Shown piece after piece: positions 1-6,363 of a stretch of DNA of 64,000 nucleotides (the first letter of the stretch is position 1; each line of letters begins with the position of its first letter). The position numbers were made by a program, and so were the translations under genes. The DNA comes from Sulfurimicrobium lacus (GTDB lineage Bacteria; Pseudomonadota; Gammaproteobacteria; Burkholderiales; Sulfuricellaceae), in assembly GCF_011764585.1 (NCBI RefSeq), contig NZ_AP022853.1:3505501-3569500 (forward strand), in the 5' to 3' direction. The notes below the pieces were generated by a model. It saw only the letters and a list, made by a program, of their open reading frames with translations, was not told where the DNA came from and made no database searches.

Positions 1-565
1 CGGTACGCAGCGCCTTGGCTTCGTCGTAGCAGGACATTTCGCAACGCGCAGCACCCACGCAGGACATGGAAGTACGCAGCGCAGGACCGGCACCACCCAA
101 GTCGAAGCCCATTTCATTGAGCTCTTCCCAGGCCGGCTGCACGTTGGCAGTGGTACAACCCTGGAACATGATGTCGCCGGACTGGCCGTGGAACGCGATC
201 AGGCCGGAACCATACTTGTCCCAGATGTCGCAGAACTGACGCAGGGTCTTGGTGTCGTAGTGCATGCCTGCAGGGGGTTGCAGACGAATGGTATGAAACT
301 CGGCGGCATCCGGGAACATTGGCTGCTCGTTTGCATCCTTGAGTTCAGTGAAGCGGGGAATAATGCCGCCACCGTAGCCGAACACGCCAACCGTACCACC
401 CTTCCAGAAACCCTTTTTGGTTTTGTAGGACTCTTCCAGTTGACCCATCAGGTCAACCATGATGTCCTTCTTCGCTGCTTCGCGCTTCAGACCGGTCACA
501 AAACTAGGCCATGGACCGCTCTCGAGCTGGTCCAGGTTCGGCGTATCGTGCATTTTTTTAGCCAT
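1..565 (-). CDS. dsrA: Dissimilatory sulfite reductase alpha subunit, DsrA (partial, N-terminal part)
   Basis: Translating the minus strand from the ATG at 565 gives MAKKMHDTPNLDQLESG and runs open to the window edge (about 188 codons; a full DsrA is about 420). A Cys pair of the kind that binds the sirohaem-coupled [4Fe-4S] cluster is visible near residue 170-180 (CVGAARCEMSC). DsrA pairs with DsrB to interconvert sulfite and sulfide in the cytoplasm. In sulfur-oxidising Proteobacteria it runs in the oxidative direction on sulfur delivered by DsrC. A purine-rich GGAGAAC lies just upstream of the start. The betaproteobacterial setting suggests the reverse (oxidative) type, but direction cannot be read from this fragment alone. 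dsrB should follow outside the window. Confidence 0.93.
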   Translation of the reverse strand, partial: MAKKMHDTPNLDQLESGPWPSFVTGLKREAAKKDIMVDLMGQLEESYKTKKGFWKGGTVGVFGYGGGIIPRFTELKDANEQPMFPDAAEFHTIRLQPPAGMHYDTKTLRQFCDIWDKYGSGLIAFHGQSGDIMFQGCTTANVQPAWEELNEMGFDLGGAGPALRTSMSCVGAARCEMSCYDEAKALRT

Positions 566-921
566 AGATGTTCTCCAAAAAAAAATTACGGCCGGCGGTG
601 CCGGTTTTTTCCGGCTCCAGCCATCTCGATTTATGCTTCAACTTTAGGTACGTAACTCTTACTGCGTTCACGAGCTTGCTGCTTGGTTACCAGCAGCTCG
701 TTCGAACTTCAGCAGTTGGCATGAATATTACAACTGTTACATTTTTTATATCTATCATTCTTCACGGCTACCCCAACTCTTAGCAGGGAGTATCGATGTA
801 CGCCATTGGCAGTATCGATATACTACCCATATGGGCTATGCCACTTGCAGATTAGCGACCTGAACCTATCTGTCGTTATAATCTGGCGCTCTCAAACCCG
901 AGTCAAACCGAGTCAAGTATT
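566..921. promoter_or_regulatory. Divergent control region between dsrA and the 76-aa gene
   Basis: 356 bases with no gene. Visible elements are: an imperfect hairpin with arms at 671-681 and 691-700 in the dsrA leader direction; the palindrome TTCGAA near 702; an AT-rich stretch at 722-765; a direct repeat AGTATCGAT at 789 and 811; the palindrome CCCATATGGG at 827-836; and a -10-like TATAAT at 877-882 pointing right, with only a poor -35. Both the dsr operon and the rightward trio must start here. The regulator is not identifiable. Confidence 0.55.
789..820. repeat. Direct repeat AGTATCGAT, 22-bp period
   Basis: AGTATCGAT occurs at 789-797 and again at 811-819. The 22-bp phase is about two helical turns, so both copies face the same side of the DNA. 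It lies between the divergent dsrA and rightward genes and could be a regulator binding site. This is inference from spacing and position only. Confidence 0.4.
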
Positions 922-1152
922 ATGGACGAATTTATCAAATTCGACAAATTTCTGGCAACACCGTATCGACAGGAAATCGAGTTGCAACAAGTCAACCACG
1001 AGGCCGGTTTCTGCACGTTGCGACTTCGCATTCGCGAGATAAAGCGCTTCACGATTTTTGAGATTGACAAGGAAACCGCTCAACATTGGGGCAATGCCTT
1101 GCTTGACTGGGCAAAATCACAGGAACAAGGAGTGACGAAATCGGCTGGCTAG
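922..1152 (+). CDS. Small conserved-looking protein (76 aa) upstream of Cas6-like gene
   Basis: The ORF starts at ATG 922 and encodes MDEFIKFDKFLATPYRQE onwards. It has no signal peptide, membrane segment or cysteine motif beyond one Cys. It has alternating basic and hydrophobic residues in the middle (LRLRIREIKRFTIFEI), which suggests a small alpha/beta fold, and a Trp-containing helix near the C-terminus (HWGNALLDWAKS). I do not recognise a family securely. It is first in a rightward set followed, with overlapping frames, by the Cas6-like gene and then the DsrC-like gene, and it is divergent from dsrA. That context suggests a role tied to sulfur metabolism or its regulation. Codon use matches the neighbours. 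Confidence 0.7.
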   Translation: MDEFIKFDKFLATPYRQEIELQQVNHEAGFCTLRLRIREIKRFTIFEIDKETAQHWGNALLDWAKSQEQGVTKSAG

Positions 1153-1226
1153 CATATCACCCCGAATCTCGCGCCATTGACGAATCACTCGTCACAGACA
1201 TTCAGTTCGACCTCAAGGGTAGCGTA

Positions 1227-1778
1227 TTGCCTATCGATCACGGCTACGATCTTTTTCTTGAACTGACTCGCCTGTTACCCTGGTTTGCGGAGGAAGCGCT
1301 GGGCGGCATTCACCCCATTCATGGCGCCGACACCGGTCACGGTGAACTGATTCTCAACCGTCGCGCCAAGCTGGTGGTGCGCATTGCCGCCGCCCGCGTG
1401 GCCGACCTTTCGAAGCTGTCTGGACAAGCAATTCAACTTGGCGGAAACACGCTTGAAATCGGCGCCGCCAAGGCTCGACCGCTAACGCGACACACGCCGC
1501 TGTTCGCCCACTGCGTCACCACTGGCAGCGAAGACGAAGTTGACTTTACCAATGATATTATTCGTCTGCTGGATGAACTGGAAATCGACTCGCGCTTTAT
1601 CTGCGGCAAACGCCAGACTCTTAAAACGCCGGACGGCACGGTCAGCGGCTTCAGCTTGATGCTGCACGGCCTACCGGTTGAGCACTCGCTGCTTGTCCAA
1701 CAACAAGGTTTGGGCAAGCACCGAAAGATGGGTTGCGGTATATTTATCCCTCACAAATCCATTACAGCGCTCACTTGA
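1227..1778 (+). CDS. Stand-alone Cas6/Cmx6-like protein (CRISPR endoribonuclease fold)
   Basis: The protein reads LPIDHGYDLFLELTRLLPW at its start and ends with a Gly-rich segment, GLGKHRKMGCGIF. That is the signature G-loop position of Cas6-type RAMP proteins, and the overall pattern matches the Cas6/Cmx6 (type I-MYXAN) family as I know it. Cas6 enzymes cut repeat RNA, but no CRISPR array or other cas gene is in this window. TTG 1227 is the first usable start codon. However, coding sequence continues upstream in frame to 1107 (IGWLAYHPES, then TDIQFDLKGSV, the expected first beta strand), so this start truncates the fold. An AAGGAG at 1127-1132 sits 7 nt before an in-frame ATC at 1140. The gene lies 43 nt before the DsrC-like gene. 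Confidence 0.7.
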   Translation: MPIDHGYDLFLELTRLLPWFAEEALGGIHPIHGADTGHGELILNRRAKLVVRIAAARVADLSKLSGQAIQLGGNTLEIGAAKARPLTRHTPLFAHCVTTGSEDEVDFTNDIIRLLDELEIDSRFICGKRQTLKTPDGTVSGFSLMLHGLPVEHSLLVQQQGLGKHRKMGCGIFIPHKSITALT

Positions 1779-1821
1779 GCGTAATTTTTTAATCAACGAC
1801 CTTAAATCAAAGGAGAGAATT

Positions 1822-2154
1822 ATGGGGTACGTCGTAAATGGCACCGAACTGGAAACGGACGATGATGGCTTTCTGCTTGAGCCGGATTACAGCGATGAAG
1901 TGGTAAACGTCATCGCCGAAGCCGAAGGCCTGAAGCTGACCGACGAGCACTGGACGGTGGTCAATTACATGCGCGACAAGTACAAGGAAGAAGGCCAGAC
2001 CCCCAACTTCCGCAACATGTGCAAAGACTTCGATGCCGACCATCCCGGCACGGACTGGAAAAAGCATCTCTACGTCCTGTTCCCCATGCAACCCAACCGT
2101 CAGTCGGCGAAAATTGCCGGCCTGCCGAAGCCTTTCGGCAAAGGCGGCTACTAA
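1822..2154 (+). CDS. DsrC/TusE-family protein lacking both C-terminal cysteines
   Basis: 110 aa from ATG 1822, with a strong AGGAGAG ribosome site at 1811-1817. An upstream in-frame extension to 1678 is rejected because it overlaps the Cas6-like gene. The fold is clearly DsrC (DEHWTVVNYMRDKY, NFRNMCKDF, and the C-terminal arm KIAGLPKPFGK). DsrC proteins carry sulfur on the last Cys of a GCV-like tail and on a second Cys ten residues earlier. Here those positions are Lys107 and Ala96, and the tail ends in GGY. Only Cys67 remains. It therefore cannot form the trisulfide that DsrC passes to DsrAB. The family literature recognises such cysteine-less members (called RspA, as I recall) as probably regulatory. 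Its place beside dsrA supports a sulfur-linked role. Confidence 0.88.
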   Translation: MGYVVNGTELETDDDGFLLEPDYSDEVVNVIAEAEGLKLTDEHWTVVNYMRDKYKEEGQTPNFRNMCKDFDADHPGTDWKKHLYVLFPMQPNRQSAKIAGLPKPFGKGGY

Positions 2155-2159
2155 ACCCA

Positions 2160-2216
2160 GCCGTCAGCTATCAGCCCTCAGCCCAATCGTCCGGCGCAGG
2201 CTGATGGCTGACAGCT
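2160..2216. repeat. GTCAGC-type palindromic repeat
   Basis: This intergenic block is made of TCAGC/GCTGA units. It forms an imperfect hairpin (GTCAGCTATCAGCC near 2163-2176 against GGCTGATGGCTGAC near 2200-2213, one mismatch). A block of the same type occurs at 42027-42090. It may also act as a weak terminator or mRNA stabiliser behind the DsrC-like gene. Confidence 0.6.
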
Positions 2217-2231
2217 GTTAGCTGATTGCCT

Positions 2232-3083
2232 ATGAAATACACCACTCTCATCAGCGCCGACCAACTCGCGCAACACATCGATGATCCCGAGTGGATCGTT
2301 TTCGATTGCCGCTTCACCCTAACCGATCCCGCTTCCGGCTACCGCGCCTATCTGGCCGGACACATTCCCGGTGCGCGCTACGCCCACCTCAATGATGATT
2401 TGTCGTCTGAAGTGACCGCCACCAGCGGCCGTCACCCCTTGCCCGACCCCGCCGTGCTGGCTAGAAAACTCGGGCTGTGGGGCGTGGACAGCAGCAGGCA
2501 GGTCGTGGTTTACGACGACAGTTTCGGCGCCATGGCCGGCCGTATGTGGTGGCTGCTGCGCTGGCTCGGCCACGACGCGGTGGCCTTGCTCGACGGCGGC
2601 ATCCAGCGCTGGATAAAACATAAAAGTCCGCTCGCCACAGAGCTGCCCGTGATTGTCCAGGCCAACTTCGAGGCCCACCCCGACAAGGAAATGTGGGTGG
2701 ATGCCGAGTGTATCGAAAAGGCGCTCGACAACAATCAGTGCCTGCTGATCGACGCCCGCTCCGAGGAGCGCTTCAGCGGGGAACGCGAGCCGCTGGACAA
2801 GGTGGCCGGACATATTCCCGGCAGCGTGAACTTCCCCTTCGAGGACAACCTCGACATAGACAGCACCTTCATGTCCGCCGAGGAATTGCGTGCCACCTAC
2901 CTTGATCTGCTCGATGGAGTCGAACCGAATCGCGTAGTGCACCTGTGCGGCTCCGGCGTCACCGCCTGCCACAGCCTGATCGCCATGGAACACGCCGGAC
3001 TCAAAGGTGCGCGCCTCTATCCCGGCTCGTGGAGCGAGTGGATTACCGATCCGGCCAGACCGGTGGAAACCGGTGATGAATAA
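2232..3083 (+). CDS. sseA: 3-mercaptopyruvate/thiosulfate sulfurtransferase (two rhodanese domains)
   Basis: 283 aa from ATG 2232. It has an inactive N-terminal rhodanese domain (about 1-140, with AGHIPGARYAHLNDDLS) and a catalytic C-terminal domain (about 155-280, with AGHIPGSVNFPFEDN). The active-site loop CGSGVTAC, with catalytic Cys239, is the form typical of mercaptopyruvate sulfurtransferases rather than the CRKGV loop of classical rhodanese. The enzyme moves sulfane sulfur from 3-mercaptopyruvate or thiosulfate to a thiol acceptor. Rhodanese-type proteins commonly feed DsrE/DsrC relays in sulfur oxidisers, so the location next to dsr genes is meaningful. Substrate preference cannot be decided from sequence alone. 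The ribosome site is weak, and the preceding TCAGC repeat takes up the space. Confidence 0.85.
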   Translation: MKYTTLISADQLAQHIDDPEWIVFDCRFTLTDPASGYRAYLAGHIPGARYAHLNDDLSSEVTATSGRHPLPDPAVLARKLGLWGVDSSRQVVVYDDSFGAMAGRMWWLLRWLGHDAVALLDGGIQRWIKHKSPLATELPVIVQANFEAHPDKEMWVDAECIEKALDNNQCLLIDARSEERFSGEREPLDKVAGHIPGSVNFPFEDNLDIDSTFMSAEELRATYLDLLDGVEPNRVVHLCGSGVTACHSLIAMEHAGLKGARLYPGSWSEWITDPARPVETGDE

Positions 3084-3118
3084 TTTCATCCCGCTGCAAA
3101 CAGGAGAAGAGTAACAAC

Positions 3119-3700
3119 ATGGCAATACGCGTAAGAAGCCAGTGGCACAACAGAAGCGACGGCGCCAAGAGCCCGCAACAGGTGGCTACGGTCATCGCTT
3201 CGCTGATCTGGCGTGTGGCGGAAGAAAAAGTCAGCCACATGCAGCAGGAAAAATTCCAGATCGCCTCGCAAGAACAGGGCTTCGCCATGATCGCCGAGTA
3301 CCTGGCCTTTCTCATTCAATACACCGACCGCTTCGTTTACGGCCGCGTGGACGAGGACTACCGGGCCGCCCTGATCGGGGCCATCGCCAAGCGTCTGGCC
3401 GAAATCCTCGAAGACAACCAGAATGCTTTTCTGGGCGCGACGCCCGGCGGTTACCAAGCCGGCTTCATCAACACGCTCAACGAGCGGCTCGCGGACTACG
3501 CCACTTTCGACTACGAGAATGGCGAGCCCAACTATCCCCAGCGCCGCTTCCTCGGCGGCAAGGTGCTCGAACTGATGCCCGCACGGGACCAATCGTGGAC
3601 CATCGACCAGGTCGTGGAAATCGAGATACCCAACGCCCTGGCCTTGCTCAAGAAAGGCCTGAGCGGGCTGTTCTCGGAAGAGTCCGGCACGTTCGGCTGA
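3119..3700 (+). CDS. Conserved hypothetical protein, 193 aa
   Basis: ATG 3119 is preceded by AGGAGAAGA at a good distance. The protein is soluble and mostly alpha-helical by composition, with no signal peptide or membrane segment. An aromatic-rich middle (YLAFLIQYTDRFVYGRVDEDY) is followed by an acidic region and then a helix near the C-terminus (IEIPNALALLKKGLSGLFS). I do not recognise the family. It lies between the sulfurtransferase gene (36-nt gap) and birA (12-nt gap), all on the same strand, so it is probably cotranscribed with sseA. A link to sulfur transfer is possible but unproven. Confidence 0.75.
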   Translation: MAIRVRSQWHNRSDGAKSPQQVATVIASLIWRVAEEKVSHMQQEKFQIASQEQGFAMIAEYLAFLIQYTDRFVYGRVDEDYRAALIGAIAKRLAEILEDNQNAFLGATPGGYQAGFINTLNERLADYATFDYENGEPNYPQRRFLGGKVLELMPARDQSWTIDQVVEIEIPNALALLKKGLSGLFSEESGTFG

Positions 3701-3712
3701 TTTTTACGCGAC

Positions 3713-4690
3713 TTGAAACCCCTCGCCTTTACCGTCCTGCGCCAGCTTTCCAGCGACGAGTTCCGCTCCGGAGAGCAGATCGCGCGCGAGCTGAACATTT
3801 CCCGCGCTTCCGTGTGGCAGGCACTGCGCGACCTGGATCGCCACGGCATCAGGCTGTTTCGCCTGGCGGGACGCGGCTACCGCCTGGCCGAGCCGCTGCA
3901 CTGGCTCGATGCCGCGGCAGTTGAATCCGCGCTGGGCGACAAGGCCGCCCTGTTCGACCTGGAAGTAATGGAAACGGCGGCCTCCAGCAATAGCATCCTG
4001 ATGCAGAAAGCCGCGCTGGGTGCGGGGCACGGCAGCTGCATCGCCGTGGAACTGCAGACTGGAGGAAGGGGTAGGCGCGGCCGCACATGGCATGCGAGCC
4101 TGGGCGGCAGCCTGACTTTTTCCCTGCTGTGGCGCTTCAACCAGGGCGCCTCCTATCTTTCCGGCCTCAGCCTGGCCGTGGGCGTGGCCTTGATGCGCGC
4201 ACTGCATCAGGCAGGCATATCGACCGCCCGCCTCAAATGGCCGAACGACGTGCTGCACGAAAACAGCAAGCTCGCCGGCATTCTGATCGAACTGCAGGGC
4301 GATATGCTGGGCCCCAGCGCCGCCGTCATCGGCATCGGCTTGAACCTGAAACTTTCCGACCAGGCCAGGGAAAATATCGACCAGGCGGCAATCGACCTCG
4401 CTGCGCTGGCGCCGGACCTCCCGACCAGGAGCCAGCTGCTGGCTCTGATTCTGGGCCATCTCGGCGACGTGCTGCAGCAGTTCGAAGCGCACGGTTTCGC
4501 TGCCCTGCGCGAGGAATGGAGCCGCCACCACGCTTACCACCAACAACCGGTGCGCATGCTGATGCCGGACGGCAGCACGCACCACGGCACAGTTTCGGGC
4601 GTAGCAGACGACGGCGCACTGCTGGTACGCGACGCAGACGGGGAACGCCGTTTCACTTCGGGAGAAGTCAGCATGCGGAGCGACGCATGA
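3713..4690 (+). CDS. birA: BirA: biotin-protein ligase / biotin operon repressor
   Basis: 325 aa from TTG 3713. A winged-helix N-terminus (about 1-65, ISRASVWQALRDLDRHGI) indicates the bifunctional repressor type. The catalytic domain carries the biotin-binding loop TGGRGRRGRTW (near residue 117) and KWPNDV (Lys175), and an SH3-like C-terminal domain follows. The enzyme activates biotin with ATP and attaches it to carboxylase carrier lysines. The gene overlaps coaX by 4 nt (ATGA), so the two are translationally coupled; birA-coaX is a common betaproteobacterial pair. The start is non-ATG, and no better start is visible in frame before the wing-helix. Confidence 0.95.
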   Translation: MKPLAFTVLRQLSSDEFRSGEQIARELNISRASVWQALRDLDRHGIRLFRLAGRGYRLAEPLHWLDAAAVESALGDKAALFDLEVMETAASSNSILMQKAALGAGHGSCIAVELQTGGRGRRGRTWHASLGGSLTFSLLWRFNQGASYLSGLSLAVGVALMRALHQAGISTARLKWPNDVLHENSKLAGILIELQGDMLGPSAAVIGIGLNLKLSDQARENIDQAAIDLAALAPDLPTRSQLLALILGHLGDVLQQFEAHGFAALREEWSRHHAYHQQPVRMLMPDGSTHHGTVSGVADDGALLVRDADGERRFTSGEVSMRSDA

Positions 4691-5406
4691 GTATTCTTGC
4701 CATCGATGCCGGCAACAGCCGCATCAAATGGGGCCTGTACGTCAGCGGCCGCTGGCTGGCGCAGGGCTGGACAGCCACCGCCCAGCCGCATCTGGACAGC
4801 CAGCTGGGCAAGCTGCCCGCGCCGAAAAAAATCATTGCTTCCAACGTTGCCGGGAGCGCTGCGGCGCAGGCAATCGAAACTGTGTGCGCCATATGGAAGA
4901 TGACGCCCCACATCGTTCAGGCCCAGCCGGAGCAATGTGGCGTTCGCAACGGCTATGCCACGCCGCATCAACTCGGCAGCGACCGCTGGGCAGCACTGAT
5001 CGCCGCGCGCCATTTATACCCCGAACGTGACGTGCTGGTGGTCCAGATCGGCACTGCCGTCACCATCGACGCGCTTGGCGCCGATGGCCGCTTCCGCGGC
5101 GGGCTGATCCTCCCTGGCTTGGCCCTGATGCTGGATTCCCTGGCACGCAATACCGCCAGCCTGACGCCGCAACAGCACGGCAAGTTCGCGACATTTCCCG
5201 ACAACACCGCCGATGCCATGTTCAGCGGCGCGGCCAACGCAATCGTCGGCGCGATCGAACATTCCTTCCGGCAACTGGAAACGCAGCCGGTCTGTTTGCT
5301 CAGCGGCGGCGATATGGATATTCTGCTGCCTTTATTGAGCATTCCAGTCCAGCCCGCAGACAACCTGGTGCTGGAAGGCCTGCTCCGCATCGCCCAAGAA
5401 CCTTGA
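4687..5406 (+). CDS. coaX: Type III pantothenate kinase CoaX
   Basis: 239 aa from ATG 4687, which overlaps the birA stop. It has the ASKHA-type phosphate loop at the N-terminus (ILAIDAGNSRIKWG), a second motif LGSDRWAALIAA, and QIGTAVTIDAL with the catalytic/phosphate-binding Asp. This enzyme phosphorylates pantothenate in the first step of coenzyme A synthesis. Type III enzymes need a monovalent cation and escape CoA feedback inhibition. Later in the window, coaD (30823) supplies the fourth step of the same pathway. Upstream in-frame sequence back to 4087 is the birA shadow, so the internal ATG is preferred. Confidence 0.95.
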   Translation: MSILAIDAGNSRIKWGLYVSGRWLAQGWTATAQPHLDSQLGKLPAPKKIIASNVAGSAAAQAIETVCAIWKMTPHIVQAQPEQCGVRNGYATPHQLGSDRWAALIAARHLYPERDVLVVQIGTAVTIDALGADGRFRGGLILPGLALMLDSLARNTASLTPQQHGKFATFPDNTADAMFSGAANAIVGAIEHSFRQLETQPVCLLSGGDMDILLPLLSIPVQPADNLVLEGLLRIAQEP

Positions 5407-5427
5407 ACAAAAACCCGAGAAAGAAAA

Positions 5428-6363
5428 ATGAATACATTGATTTGCGGCTCGCTGGCCTACGACAGCATCATGGTGTTCCACGACCAGTTCAAAAACCACA
5501 TCCTGCCCGAACAGATCCACATTCTGAACGTGGCCTTCCTGGTGCCCGACATGCGGCGCGAATTCGGCGGCTGCGCCGGCAACATCGCCTACAACCTCCA
5601 GTTGCTGGGCGGCAAGCCGCTCATCATGGCCGCGGTGGGCGACGACTTTGAACCCTATGCGCAGCGGCTGGAAAGACTCGAACTGGTGCAAACCCACGTG
5701 CGTCGGGTCAGCGGCTCCTACACCGCCCAGGCCTTCATCACCACCGACCTGGACGACAACCAGATCACCGCCTTCCACCCCGGCGCCATGAGCTTTTCCC
5801 ACCACAACCACGTGCATGACGCCAGCAACGTCGCGCTCGGCATCGTCGCCCCGGACGGTCGCGACGGCATGCTGCAGCATGCGCGGGAATTCCACGAAGC
5901 CGGCGTGCCGTTCGTGTTCGACCCCGGCCAGGGGCTGCCCATGTTCAACGGCGCCGAACTCATGGATTTCGTCGCCCTGGCCGACTATGTCGCGCTCAAC
6001 GATTACGAAGCCAAGCTGCTGCAGGAGCGCACCGGCAAGACGCTGGAGCAACTGGCCGGCGAAGTGCGCGCCCTCATCGTCACGCTGGGCGCCAAAGGTT
6101 CAGTGATTTACACCGGCGGCAAGATGCTGGAAATCCCCTGCGTCGAAGCAGCCCAGGTGGTGGACCCCACCGGCTGCGGCGACGCCTACCGCGCAGGTCT
6201 GCTCTACGGCATCGTGAACGGCATGGACTGGGAAATGACCGGCCGCCTCGCCGGTCTGATGGGCTCCCTCAAAATCGCCAGCCGCGGTGGGCAGAACCAC
6301 GTCCACTCGCGCGAAGAAATTTCCGCCCTGTTCAAGCAGCAGTTCGGCACCAGCTTCGAGTAA
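5428..6363 (+). CDS. PfkB-family sugar/nucleoside kinase (adenosine-kinase-like)
   Basis: 311 aa from ATG 5428 with AGAAAGAAAA upstream. PfkB motif 1 is present (GGCAGNIAYNLQLLGG), and the C-terminal motif 2 DPTGCGDAYRAGL carries the catalytic Asp and anion hole. The family phosphorylates ribose, fructose or adenosine-type substrates; many database entries for close betaproteobacterial forms read adenosine kinase or carbohydrate kinase. Substrate is not decidable here. It is followed by plsC with a 1-nt overlap (TAATG), implying cotranscription. Confidence 0.85.
   Translation: MNTLICGSLAYDSIMVFHDQFKNHILPEQIHILNVAFLVPDMRREFGGCAGNIAYNLQLLGGKPLIMAAVGDDFEPYAQRLERLELVQTHVRRVSGSYTAQAFITTDLDDNQITAFHPGAMSFSHHNHVHDASNVALGIVAPDGRDGMLQHAREFHEAGVPFVFDPGQGLPMFNGAELMDFVALADYVALNDYEAKLLQERTGKTLEQLAGEVRALIVTLGAKGSVIYTGGKMLEIPCVEAAQVVDPTGCGDAYRAGLLYGIVNGMDWEMTGRLAGLMGSLKIASRGGQNHVHSREEISALFKQQFGTSFE

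Follow-up and report, generated by a model that had tools for sequence, protein, structure and literature searches.

Why does a gene for a Cas6 family protein stand next to genes for sulfur oxidation? This question is raised by a stretch of 64,000 nucleotides from Sulfurimicrobium lacus (NZ_AP022853.1, positions 3,505,501 to 3,569,500, here called the window), which covers 64 kb of a genome assembled as a single contig of 3.83 Mb and in which genes for a DUF6967 protein, a Cas6-like protein (Cas6L) and a paralogue of DsrC (DsrCL) are directed away from dsrA, the gene for the alpha subunit of dissimilatory sulfite reductase (Dsr). The reverse Dsr pathway is among the main sulfur-oxidation routes of sediments, animal symbioses and marine oxygen-minimum zones, yet little is understood of how it is controlled. 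Comparison across genomes showed that Cas6L represents a Cas6 lineage outside CRISPR (clustered regularly interspaced short palindromic repeats) that is tied to dsrAB in the genomes of gamma- and betaproteobacteria, in most cases along with a DsrC paralogue that is redox-dead. The folds involved are already known, and what is new is the system. An association much stronger than this one can hardly be had from comparative genomics; the mechanism discussed below is what we infer.

The gene order described in a first-pass annotation of the window, namely three tightly spaced rightward genes divergent to dsrA, was borne out: dsrA starts at position 565 on the minus strand, the DUF6967 gene overlaps the Cas6L gene, and 43 nucleotides separate Cas6L from DsrCL. 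The same annotation had left the product of the first gene unrecognised, which needs correction, as DUF6967 was the sole Pfam match over the cut-off for the protein encoded at 922-1152. The dsrB gene of the same genome lies at C1:3503656-3504660 on the minus strand. The genes in question are as follows.

2..565, minus strand: first 188 codons of dsrA (sulfite reductase alpha), the divergent partner of the module
566..921, no strand: divergent intergenic region from dsrA to the DUF6967 gene (sequence)
922..1152, plus strand: DUF6967, 76 residues (PF22295, E 5e-28; AlphaFold model)
1140..1778, plus strand: Cas6L, 212 residues, Cas6/Cmx6 family, apparent ATC start (PF09559, TIGR02807, Foldseek match 8fcj_B)
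1822..2154, plus strand: DsrCL, DsrC paralogue of 110 residues, both redox cysteines absent, C-terminus GKGGY (PF04358, TIGR03342)

Association of Cas6L with the dsr genes

The co-occurrence of Cas6L and dsrB was determined in 369 genomes of the class Gammaproteobacteria, betaproteobacteria included. PF09559 was found in 118 of them, with a single match each except for G324, in which the match is in two pieces, and dsrB scored over the cut-off in 115, or 119 when four fragmentary cases are counted. Both genes were present in 110 genomes, Cas6L only in 8, dsrB only in 9 and neither in 242 (Fisher p 3e-72, a value that ignores the kinship of the genomes), a co-occurrence that is far beyond chance. 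Furthermore, 14 of the 17 mismatches are accounted for by contig ends or by a dsrA gene beside Cas6L. In seven of the nine genomes with dsrB only (G130, G139, G170, G183, G267, G298 and G330), the contig breaks off at dsrA or a short way upstream of it; among those with Cas6L only, dsrA or the start of dsrA lies within 3 kb in G093, G400 and G378, and the contig stops just upstream of the Cas6L operon in G187, G153, G246 and G377.

The two genes are also physically linked. Where both were on one contig, they were divergent and 2.0-5.9 kb apart in 74 of 76 genomes. The other two, G169 and G384, keep Cas6L at 40 kb and 518 kb from dsrB, respectively; they belong to one family (L156, L157), the genomes of which are 1.4-1.6 Mb in size. 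Five genomes of 1.0-1.1 Mb (G099, G347, G202, G315 and G410) likewise retain Cas6L.

The first-pass annotation had expected that, if the trio had a meaning, a Cas6/Cmx6-type gene next to a DsrC-like gene would recur beside dsr in many sulfur oxidisers instead of being unique to this genome. Such recurrence was seen in the counts above and in the wide adjacency of Cas6L and DsrCL. A protein search found Cas6L in 27 of 61 relatives, the window's own genome counted. In the 80 named loci, which are the top-scoring 80 among 584 relatives, dsrA was divergent in 78, the exceptions being L076 and L092 at contig ends; DUF6967 was present in 75, DsrCL was next to Cas6L in 77, and all three were found in 71; the loci nearest to the window are from Sulfuricella and Sulfurimicrobium metagenome-assembled genomes (MAGs). 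In 29 class-level loci outside the order, DsrCL was located downstream on the same strand in 25.

The module extends beyond the trio, with a composition that depends on the lineage. In the longer gammaproteobacterial stretches, dsrAB is divergent from a gene for a TauD-family dioxygenase (PF02668), followed by a gene for a protein of about 63 residues, then Cas6L and DsrCL; a protein of about 235 residues is encoded ahead of Cas6L in part of these operons, and one of about 68 residues often follows DsrCL. The TauD-like, 63-residue and 235-residue proteins belong to the gammaproteobacterial versions, and DUF6967 and a rhodanese to the betaproteobacterial ones. The window's genome has a TauD-like gene, 52% identical, elsewhere (C1:3788557). 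As a separate observation, the protein of about 235 residues (L152:9593-10297, L144, L146 and others), whose gene sits between the 63-residue gene and Cas6L, is conserved (mean column identity of the alignment 61%) and matches no family over the cut-off. Its assignment to Cas11/Cse2 was tried and rejected, as 1 of 10 members matched at E 0.013 and no PDB match was found below E 0.39. Carriage of Cas6L by phages or viruses was also looked for: the phage collection held no case, a search of viral contigs with one pattern gave no confirmed one, and Cas6L has no PHROG.

Independence from CRISPR

The statement of the first-pass annotation that the Cas6/Cmx6-fold protein is accompanied by no array or cas gene in the window was upheld. 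A simple scan for 20-mers occurring three times 45-100 nucleotides apart found no CRISPR-array-like repeats in the 64-kb window, and the neighbours of Cas6L are dsrA, DUF6967, DsrCL and the rhodanese; cas3, cas8/cmx8 and cas5 are not beside it. In the whole genome, Cas1 had 0 matches and the Cas3 core had none over the cut-off, with six matches below it. As a positive control, seven relatives on cyanobacterial plasmids were recovered, six of which are flanked by cas3, cas8/cmx8 and cas5. The seventh, on a Gloeobacter morelensis plasmid (L158:6974-7765), is an orphan Cas6/Cmx6 gene without cas neighbours, near a cupin gene and a gene of the PAPS (3'-phosphoadenosine 5'-phosphosulfate)-reductase family.

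Across the 369 genomes, Cas1 was found in 135, and in 50 of the 118 with Cas6L, leaving 68 without it; this association is not significant (p 0.13), and Cas6L follows dsrB and not Cas1. Membership in a type I-MYXAN system was therefore rejected, given the lack of Cas1, of Cas3 over the cut-off, of cas neighbours and of a significant association with Cas1. An array of that type served by this Cas6, which had been named as an outcome that would speak against the trio, is unlikely given the genome-wide Cas1 and Cas3 results and an array scan that covered the window. Taken by itself, the statement that the module is non-CRISPR and dedicated to dsr is almost certainly correct.

Properties of Cas6L

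Cas6L, the open frame of which spans 1107-1778, matches PF09559 at E 4e-64 and TIGR02807 (cas6_cmx6) with 164.7 bits against a cut-off of 98.85. Its AlphaFold model has a predicted local distance difference test score (pLDDT) of 90.5 and a predicted template-modelling (TM) score of 0.86, and the best solved match is 8fcj_B, the Cas6 of a type I-B CRISPR-associated transposon Cascade (Foldseek TM 0.84, E 2.5e-17; sequence E 3e-32). A tree built from 80 rows splits the 73 dsr-linked sequences from the seven cyanobacterial ones with support of 100/99.

Residues were compared between 118 distinct dsr-linked cores (near-copies were counted, and 89 cores come from the order or from the set of 80 named loci) and a small set of 6 CRISPR-linked sequences, all from cyanobacterial plasmids and with the Gloeobacter orphan left out. 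Five residues are fixed in the dsr lineage only: R75 (118/118 vs 1/6), E133 (118/118 vs 0/6), G156 (117/118), H205 (114/118) and K206 (117/118), the last three each vs 0/6. The G-rich loop (G190, G192, G198, C199 and G200) is present in 118/118 and is common to the CRISPR-linked Cas6 proteins save for one Ala at C199. Cas6 enzymes often bear a catalytic His, the general base, in the helix-1 region. The His that opens helix 1 occurs in 6/6 CRISPR-linked sequences, but in 97/118 dsr-linked ones, being replaced in 21/118. Cleavage by Cas6L is doubtful; an argument for lost catalysis is weak, because 8fcj itself has Asn at this position in the alignment.

Cas6L thus resembles the Cas6/Cmx6 of type I-MYXAN and I-B systems in fold, family models, G-rich loop and size, but differs in that it has neither a cas operon nor, within the window, an array, and in its tie to dsrAB, a separate branch, the five fixed residues and a helix-1 His that is often replaced. 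The transposon Cas6 shows that the same family is used outside plain immunity; however, it is still in a Cascade complex, whereas no Cascade genes are linked to Cas6L here.

Properties of DsrCL and DUF6967

DsrCL belongs to the DsrC/TusE family of sulfur-relay proteins (PF04358 DsrC, E 1e-31; TIGR03342 over the cut-off; structure 1yx3 DsrC, E 7e-16) and keeps the C-terminal arm in its 110 residues, but it lacks the penultimate Cys, mostly lacks the inner Cys, and ends in KGGY. A class of DsrC paralogues, RspA, is known from the literature; our search did not find it. Strict conservation of the penultimate Cys in DsrC is stated in PMC3397948, and the true DsrC of the operons studied here ends in ...QACKYAGLPKPTGCV or alike. 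In DsrCL, by contrast, the tails read, for example, GLPKPFGKGGY (beta) or GLPESRRKGGY (gamma). The GKGGY tail was found in 76 of the 76 readable rows among 77 from the named loci (L093 is masked by N) and the KGGY end in 21 of 21 rows of a further set; the penultimate Cys was present in 0 readable rows, and the inner Cys was absent in 71 of 76. The protein encoded in the window has no Cys at either redox position, as the first-pass annotation had said, but calling it cysteine-less was inexact, since one other Cys is present (NMCKDF). A fusion of DsrCL to a rhodanese in L093 was rejected, as the frame is open solely through runs of N. For Thiodictyon, PMC5944118 lists an additional DsrC-like gene, THSYN_22565, with a number close to those of the dsr genes, which the available part of the paper does not join to Cas6; the DsrC of A. 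vinosum is described there as able to bind the DNA that lies upstream of the dsr cluster.

The AlphaFold model of DUF6967 (pLDDT 90.8) consists of four strands and one helix, in weak likeness to the PUR repeats of Pur-alpha. Of its top 14 Foldseek matches, 12 are Pur-alpha/PURA and 2 are SP_0782, which was solved with single-stranded DNA; the 14 have probabilities of 0.96-1.0, but their E-values (0.2-0.9) are not significant, identity is about 10%, and there is no match in sequence. In one genome (G040, L025), DUF6967 is fused in frame to Cas6L. This fusion and the PUR-like fold of the model fit, weakly, a nucleic-acid-binding pair of Cas6L and DUF6967, but in the gammaproteobacterial operons DUF6967 was not found.

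A putative non-canonical start codon of Cas6L

The first in-frame ATG, GTG or TTG of Cas6L is the TTG at 1227, use of which would remove the first beta-strand of the protein. The likely start is instead the ATC at 1140, which overlaps the end of the DUF6967 gene and follows a ribosome-binding sequence.

1127..1132, plus strand: Shine-Dalgarno sequence AAGGAG, 7 nucleotides ahead of the ATC (sequence)

In 37 of the 80 named loci, picked by this motif so that the Ile codon is given by construction, Cas6L begins Ile-Gly/Ser-Trp where the gammaproteobacterial relatives have M-x-W. The codons at this position were ATA in 26, ATC in 11 and ATT in 0, and a Shine-Dalgarno-like motif was located within 20 nucleotides in 37/37. 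In addition, all 20 tree rows in the supported clade of the window gene (100/99) bear the Ile-start motif, which is not by construction. No in-frame ATG, GTG or TTG is available from the upstream stop to residue 20 in the window and in 7 of the 37 loci (one of these, L092, is cut by a contig end); in the other 30, an in-frame canonical codon lies before or after, so that the ATA or ATC start is likely there, but not forced. A -1 frameshift from DUF6967 was considered in place of a non-canonical start and set aside as less likely, as L066, L069, L070 and L073 keep the ATC and DUF6967 was not found there; a frameshift is also disfavoured because the gammaproteobacterial M-x-W start aligns with I-G-W. 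Starts at AUU, AUA or AUC limit initiation through initiation factor 3 (IF3, infC), and the ATC/ATA start may point to low, regulated synthesis of Cas6L.

RNA structures near the dsr genes

Structures at two kinds of sites were compared, one of which lies in the divergent region of the window.

591..625, minus strand: dsrA-leader hairpin, just upstream of the dsrA Shine-Dalgarno sequence, limits approximate (comparison of 8 genus sequences)

This two-part hairpin is kept in 8 sequences of the genus, with compensatory change in 3 pairs, and its covariation score was reached in 25 of 500 shuffles; as a target of Cas6L it is suggestive only. Long hairpins were also found in the gaps between dsrB and dsrE and between dsrC and dsrM of many betaproteobacterial operons (L058-L064 and, in the window's own genome, L175, C1:3486500-3506400). 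Their sequence varies with the pairing kept, and their z-scores against mononucleotide shuffles are mostly -1 to -6. These hairpins could set the abundance of the dsrC transcript. No Rfam family was matched at gathering score in positions 1-6000 of the window.

Possible role of the module and alternatives

Our tentative explanation, which we hold at somewhat less than an even chance, is that Cas6L is the RNA-binding subunit of an accessory module of the reverse Dsr pathway that is linked to the sulfur-oxidation proteins by DsrCL and controls dsr. In such a module, the PUR-like DUF6967 would be a second nucleic-acid-binding part in the lineage of the window, and DsrCL would dock as a pseudo-substrate on the partners of DsrC (DsrEFH, DsrAB) and report their occupancy to the RNA-binding part, which in turn would set the translation or stability of the dsr mRNA, or of Cas6L's own; Cas6L itself would be made sparingly from its ATC/ATA start. 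Nucleic-acid binding is favoured because of the Cas6 fold of Cas6L and the weakly PUR-like fold of DUF6967, and RNA binding by Cas6L is likely. Docking of DsrCL as a pseudo-substrate is proposed because the DsrC body and the strictly conserved arm are kept and the sulfur-accepting penultimate Cys is absent; that DsrCL forms the link in this way falls a little short of an even chance, and post-transcriptional control of dsr by the module is possible with slightly less assurance. Somewhat unlikely, as the boldest form of the proposal, is that a Cas6 lineage departed from CRISPR and became the RNA-binding core of a dedicated ribonucleoprotein, which senses the sulfur-oxidation load through a pseudo-DsrC lacking redox cysteines. 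This particle would control dsr expression in almost every gamma- or betaproteobacterium that oxidises sulfur by reverse Dsr, even where the genome is as small as 1.0-1.1 Mb. Of the sulfur-linked RNA-processing or regulatory system suggested in the first-pass annotation, the sulfur link has held up in the co-occurrence counts, but the RNA part is still something that we infer and processing is doubtful, given the replaced His.

Several observations weigh against this explanation. The genomes G271 (6.7 kb readable upstream) and G414 (1.8 kb), with dsrB only, and G359, with Cas6L only, are unexplained exceptions, and relatedness is left out of the Fisher p-value. DsrCL does not adjoin Cas6L in 3 of the 80 named loci (L096, L097 and L112) and is on the opposite strand (2) or was not found (2) in 4 of the 29 class loci; 5 of 76 DsrCL rows (L119, L128, L132, L133 and L137) keep a Cys at the inner position. 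The PUR match of DUF6967 has no significant E-value, and none of the 29 class loci outside the order gave a DUF6967 match, which means that the PUR-like part is no general feature of the module. The support for the dsrA-leader hairpin is weak and comes from one genus, strong intercistronic hairpins are absent from L153-L155 and L176, all of which have Cas6L, and the hairpin comparisons established no RNA target of Cas6L. Finally, in a phylum sample of 398 genomes, in which 51 had dsrB over the cut-off, all 5 in-class dsrB genomes carry PF09559 and 0 of the 46 outside the class do. The module is therefore an addition of the gamma/beta lineage, and Dsr chemistry works without Cas6L elsewhere.

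The same evidence bears on the alternatives. Cas6L might be an active endoribonuclease that cuts the polycistronic dsr mRNA at the intercistronic hairpins, with the result that dsrC, dsrEFH and the membrane genes are expressed at unequal levels, as its Cas6 fold and the strong hairpins, with pairing kept in the genus and mostly negative z-scores, would suggest. The hairpins are real, yet the four operons that have Cas6L without them mean that they are not a general target, the z-score is near 0 in L085, the sequences vary, unlike those of the usual Cas6 repeats, which are conserved, and the helix-1 His kept in 6/6 CRISPR-linked sequences is replaced in 21/118; Cas6L as processor of these hairpins was set aside on these grounds and, though it remains a rival, is quite unlikely. 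A role without RNA, in which DsrCL assists the assembly of DsrAB or DsrEFH or inhibits them and Cas6L is a protein partner for which RNA is no more involved, is unlikely to a lesser degree: the whole DsrC arm, the fixed KGGY end and several dsr-only invariants of Cas6L outside the G-rich loop are consistent with it, but the loop itself, 118/118 and common to CRISPR-linked Cas6, is as expected if RNA binding was kept, and the PUR-like fold of DUF6967 argues weakly in the same direction.

A sulfur relay in which a TusE-like DsrCL and an RNA-binding Cas6L act in RNA thiolation fed by the rhodanese, or in which GGY is trimmed to a GG thiocarboxylate carrier, would make use of the DsrC/TusE family membership, the rhodanese neighbour in beta loci and the invariant KGGY end. 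We consider it improbable, as the persulfide-bearing penultimate Cys is in no readable DsrCL tail, a rhodanese is within 1.5 kb in 3 of the 29 class loci, and no E1-like enzyme is among the identified neighbours, although no search aimed at such enzymes was made. That the genes merely travel with the dsr island, with no role in sulfur oxidation, would agree with the physical linkage in 74 of 76 genomes, but is very improbable in view of the retention of Cas6L in G169 and G384 far from dsrB and in the five 1.0-1.1 Mb genomes noted above, and of the residues that are invariant across 118 sequences. Service in trans to a type I-MYXAN system with its array elsewhere, which would fit the Cas6/Cmx6 names given by the NCBIfam and PADLOC models, is largely refuted and hardly tenable: Cas1, and Cas3 over the cut-off, are lacking in the genome, Cas1 is missing from 68 of the 118 genomes with Cas6L, with no significant association, and Cas6L is tied to dsrAB.

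Relation to earlier work and significance

The co-location of cas6 and dsr has already been drawn in print at least once: in the available part of PMC10989796, the legend to Fig. 3B lists cas6 among the genes of mangrove MAGs drawn with dsrABCMKJOP, dsrEFH and sox. That text, so far as available, contains cas6 once and CRISPR never, and leaves the link, the DsrC paralogue and their function uncommented. Other papers with Cas6 plus dsrA or DsrC, in their available parts, concern gene lists or CRISPR-Cas loci of the ordinary kind. The literature searched, which leaves out most subscription journals, yielded no paper in which the link is discussed.

We know of no other system in which a sulfur-oxidation locus combines a pseudo-DsrC with a Cas6 protein. 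This gene set tracks dsrAB almost one to one across the class and is easily overlooked, as the family models name one part of it CRISPR; when CRISPR systems are counted, matches to Cas6/Cmx6 from sulfur oxidisers should be left out. Cas6L and DsrCL offer a direct genetic handle in culturable sulfur oxidisers, and the locus provides for study an apparent, conserved AUA/AUC start codon, a pseudo-DsrC and a Cas6 lineage that has become fixed in a role outside CRISPR.

Other features of the locus

Two further genes lie downstream of DsrCL, the first of which is a conserved partner, by synteny, in most betaproteobacterial loci.

2232..3083, plus strand: two-domain rhodanese, 3-mercaptopyruvate sulfurtransferase-like (PF00581; NF008557 below its cut-off)
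3119..3700, plus strand: protein of 193 residues, no family over the cut-off, conserved downstream (synteny)

The divergent promoter region contains a palindrome, CCCATATGGG, at positions 826-835 of the window, which is also found in L005 and is a possible operator. In addition, the window's genome has a possible second DsrA-like gene at G000:C1:486171-487103 (dsrB model E 1.5e-32, open frame of 444 residues).

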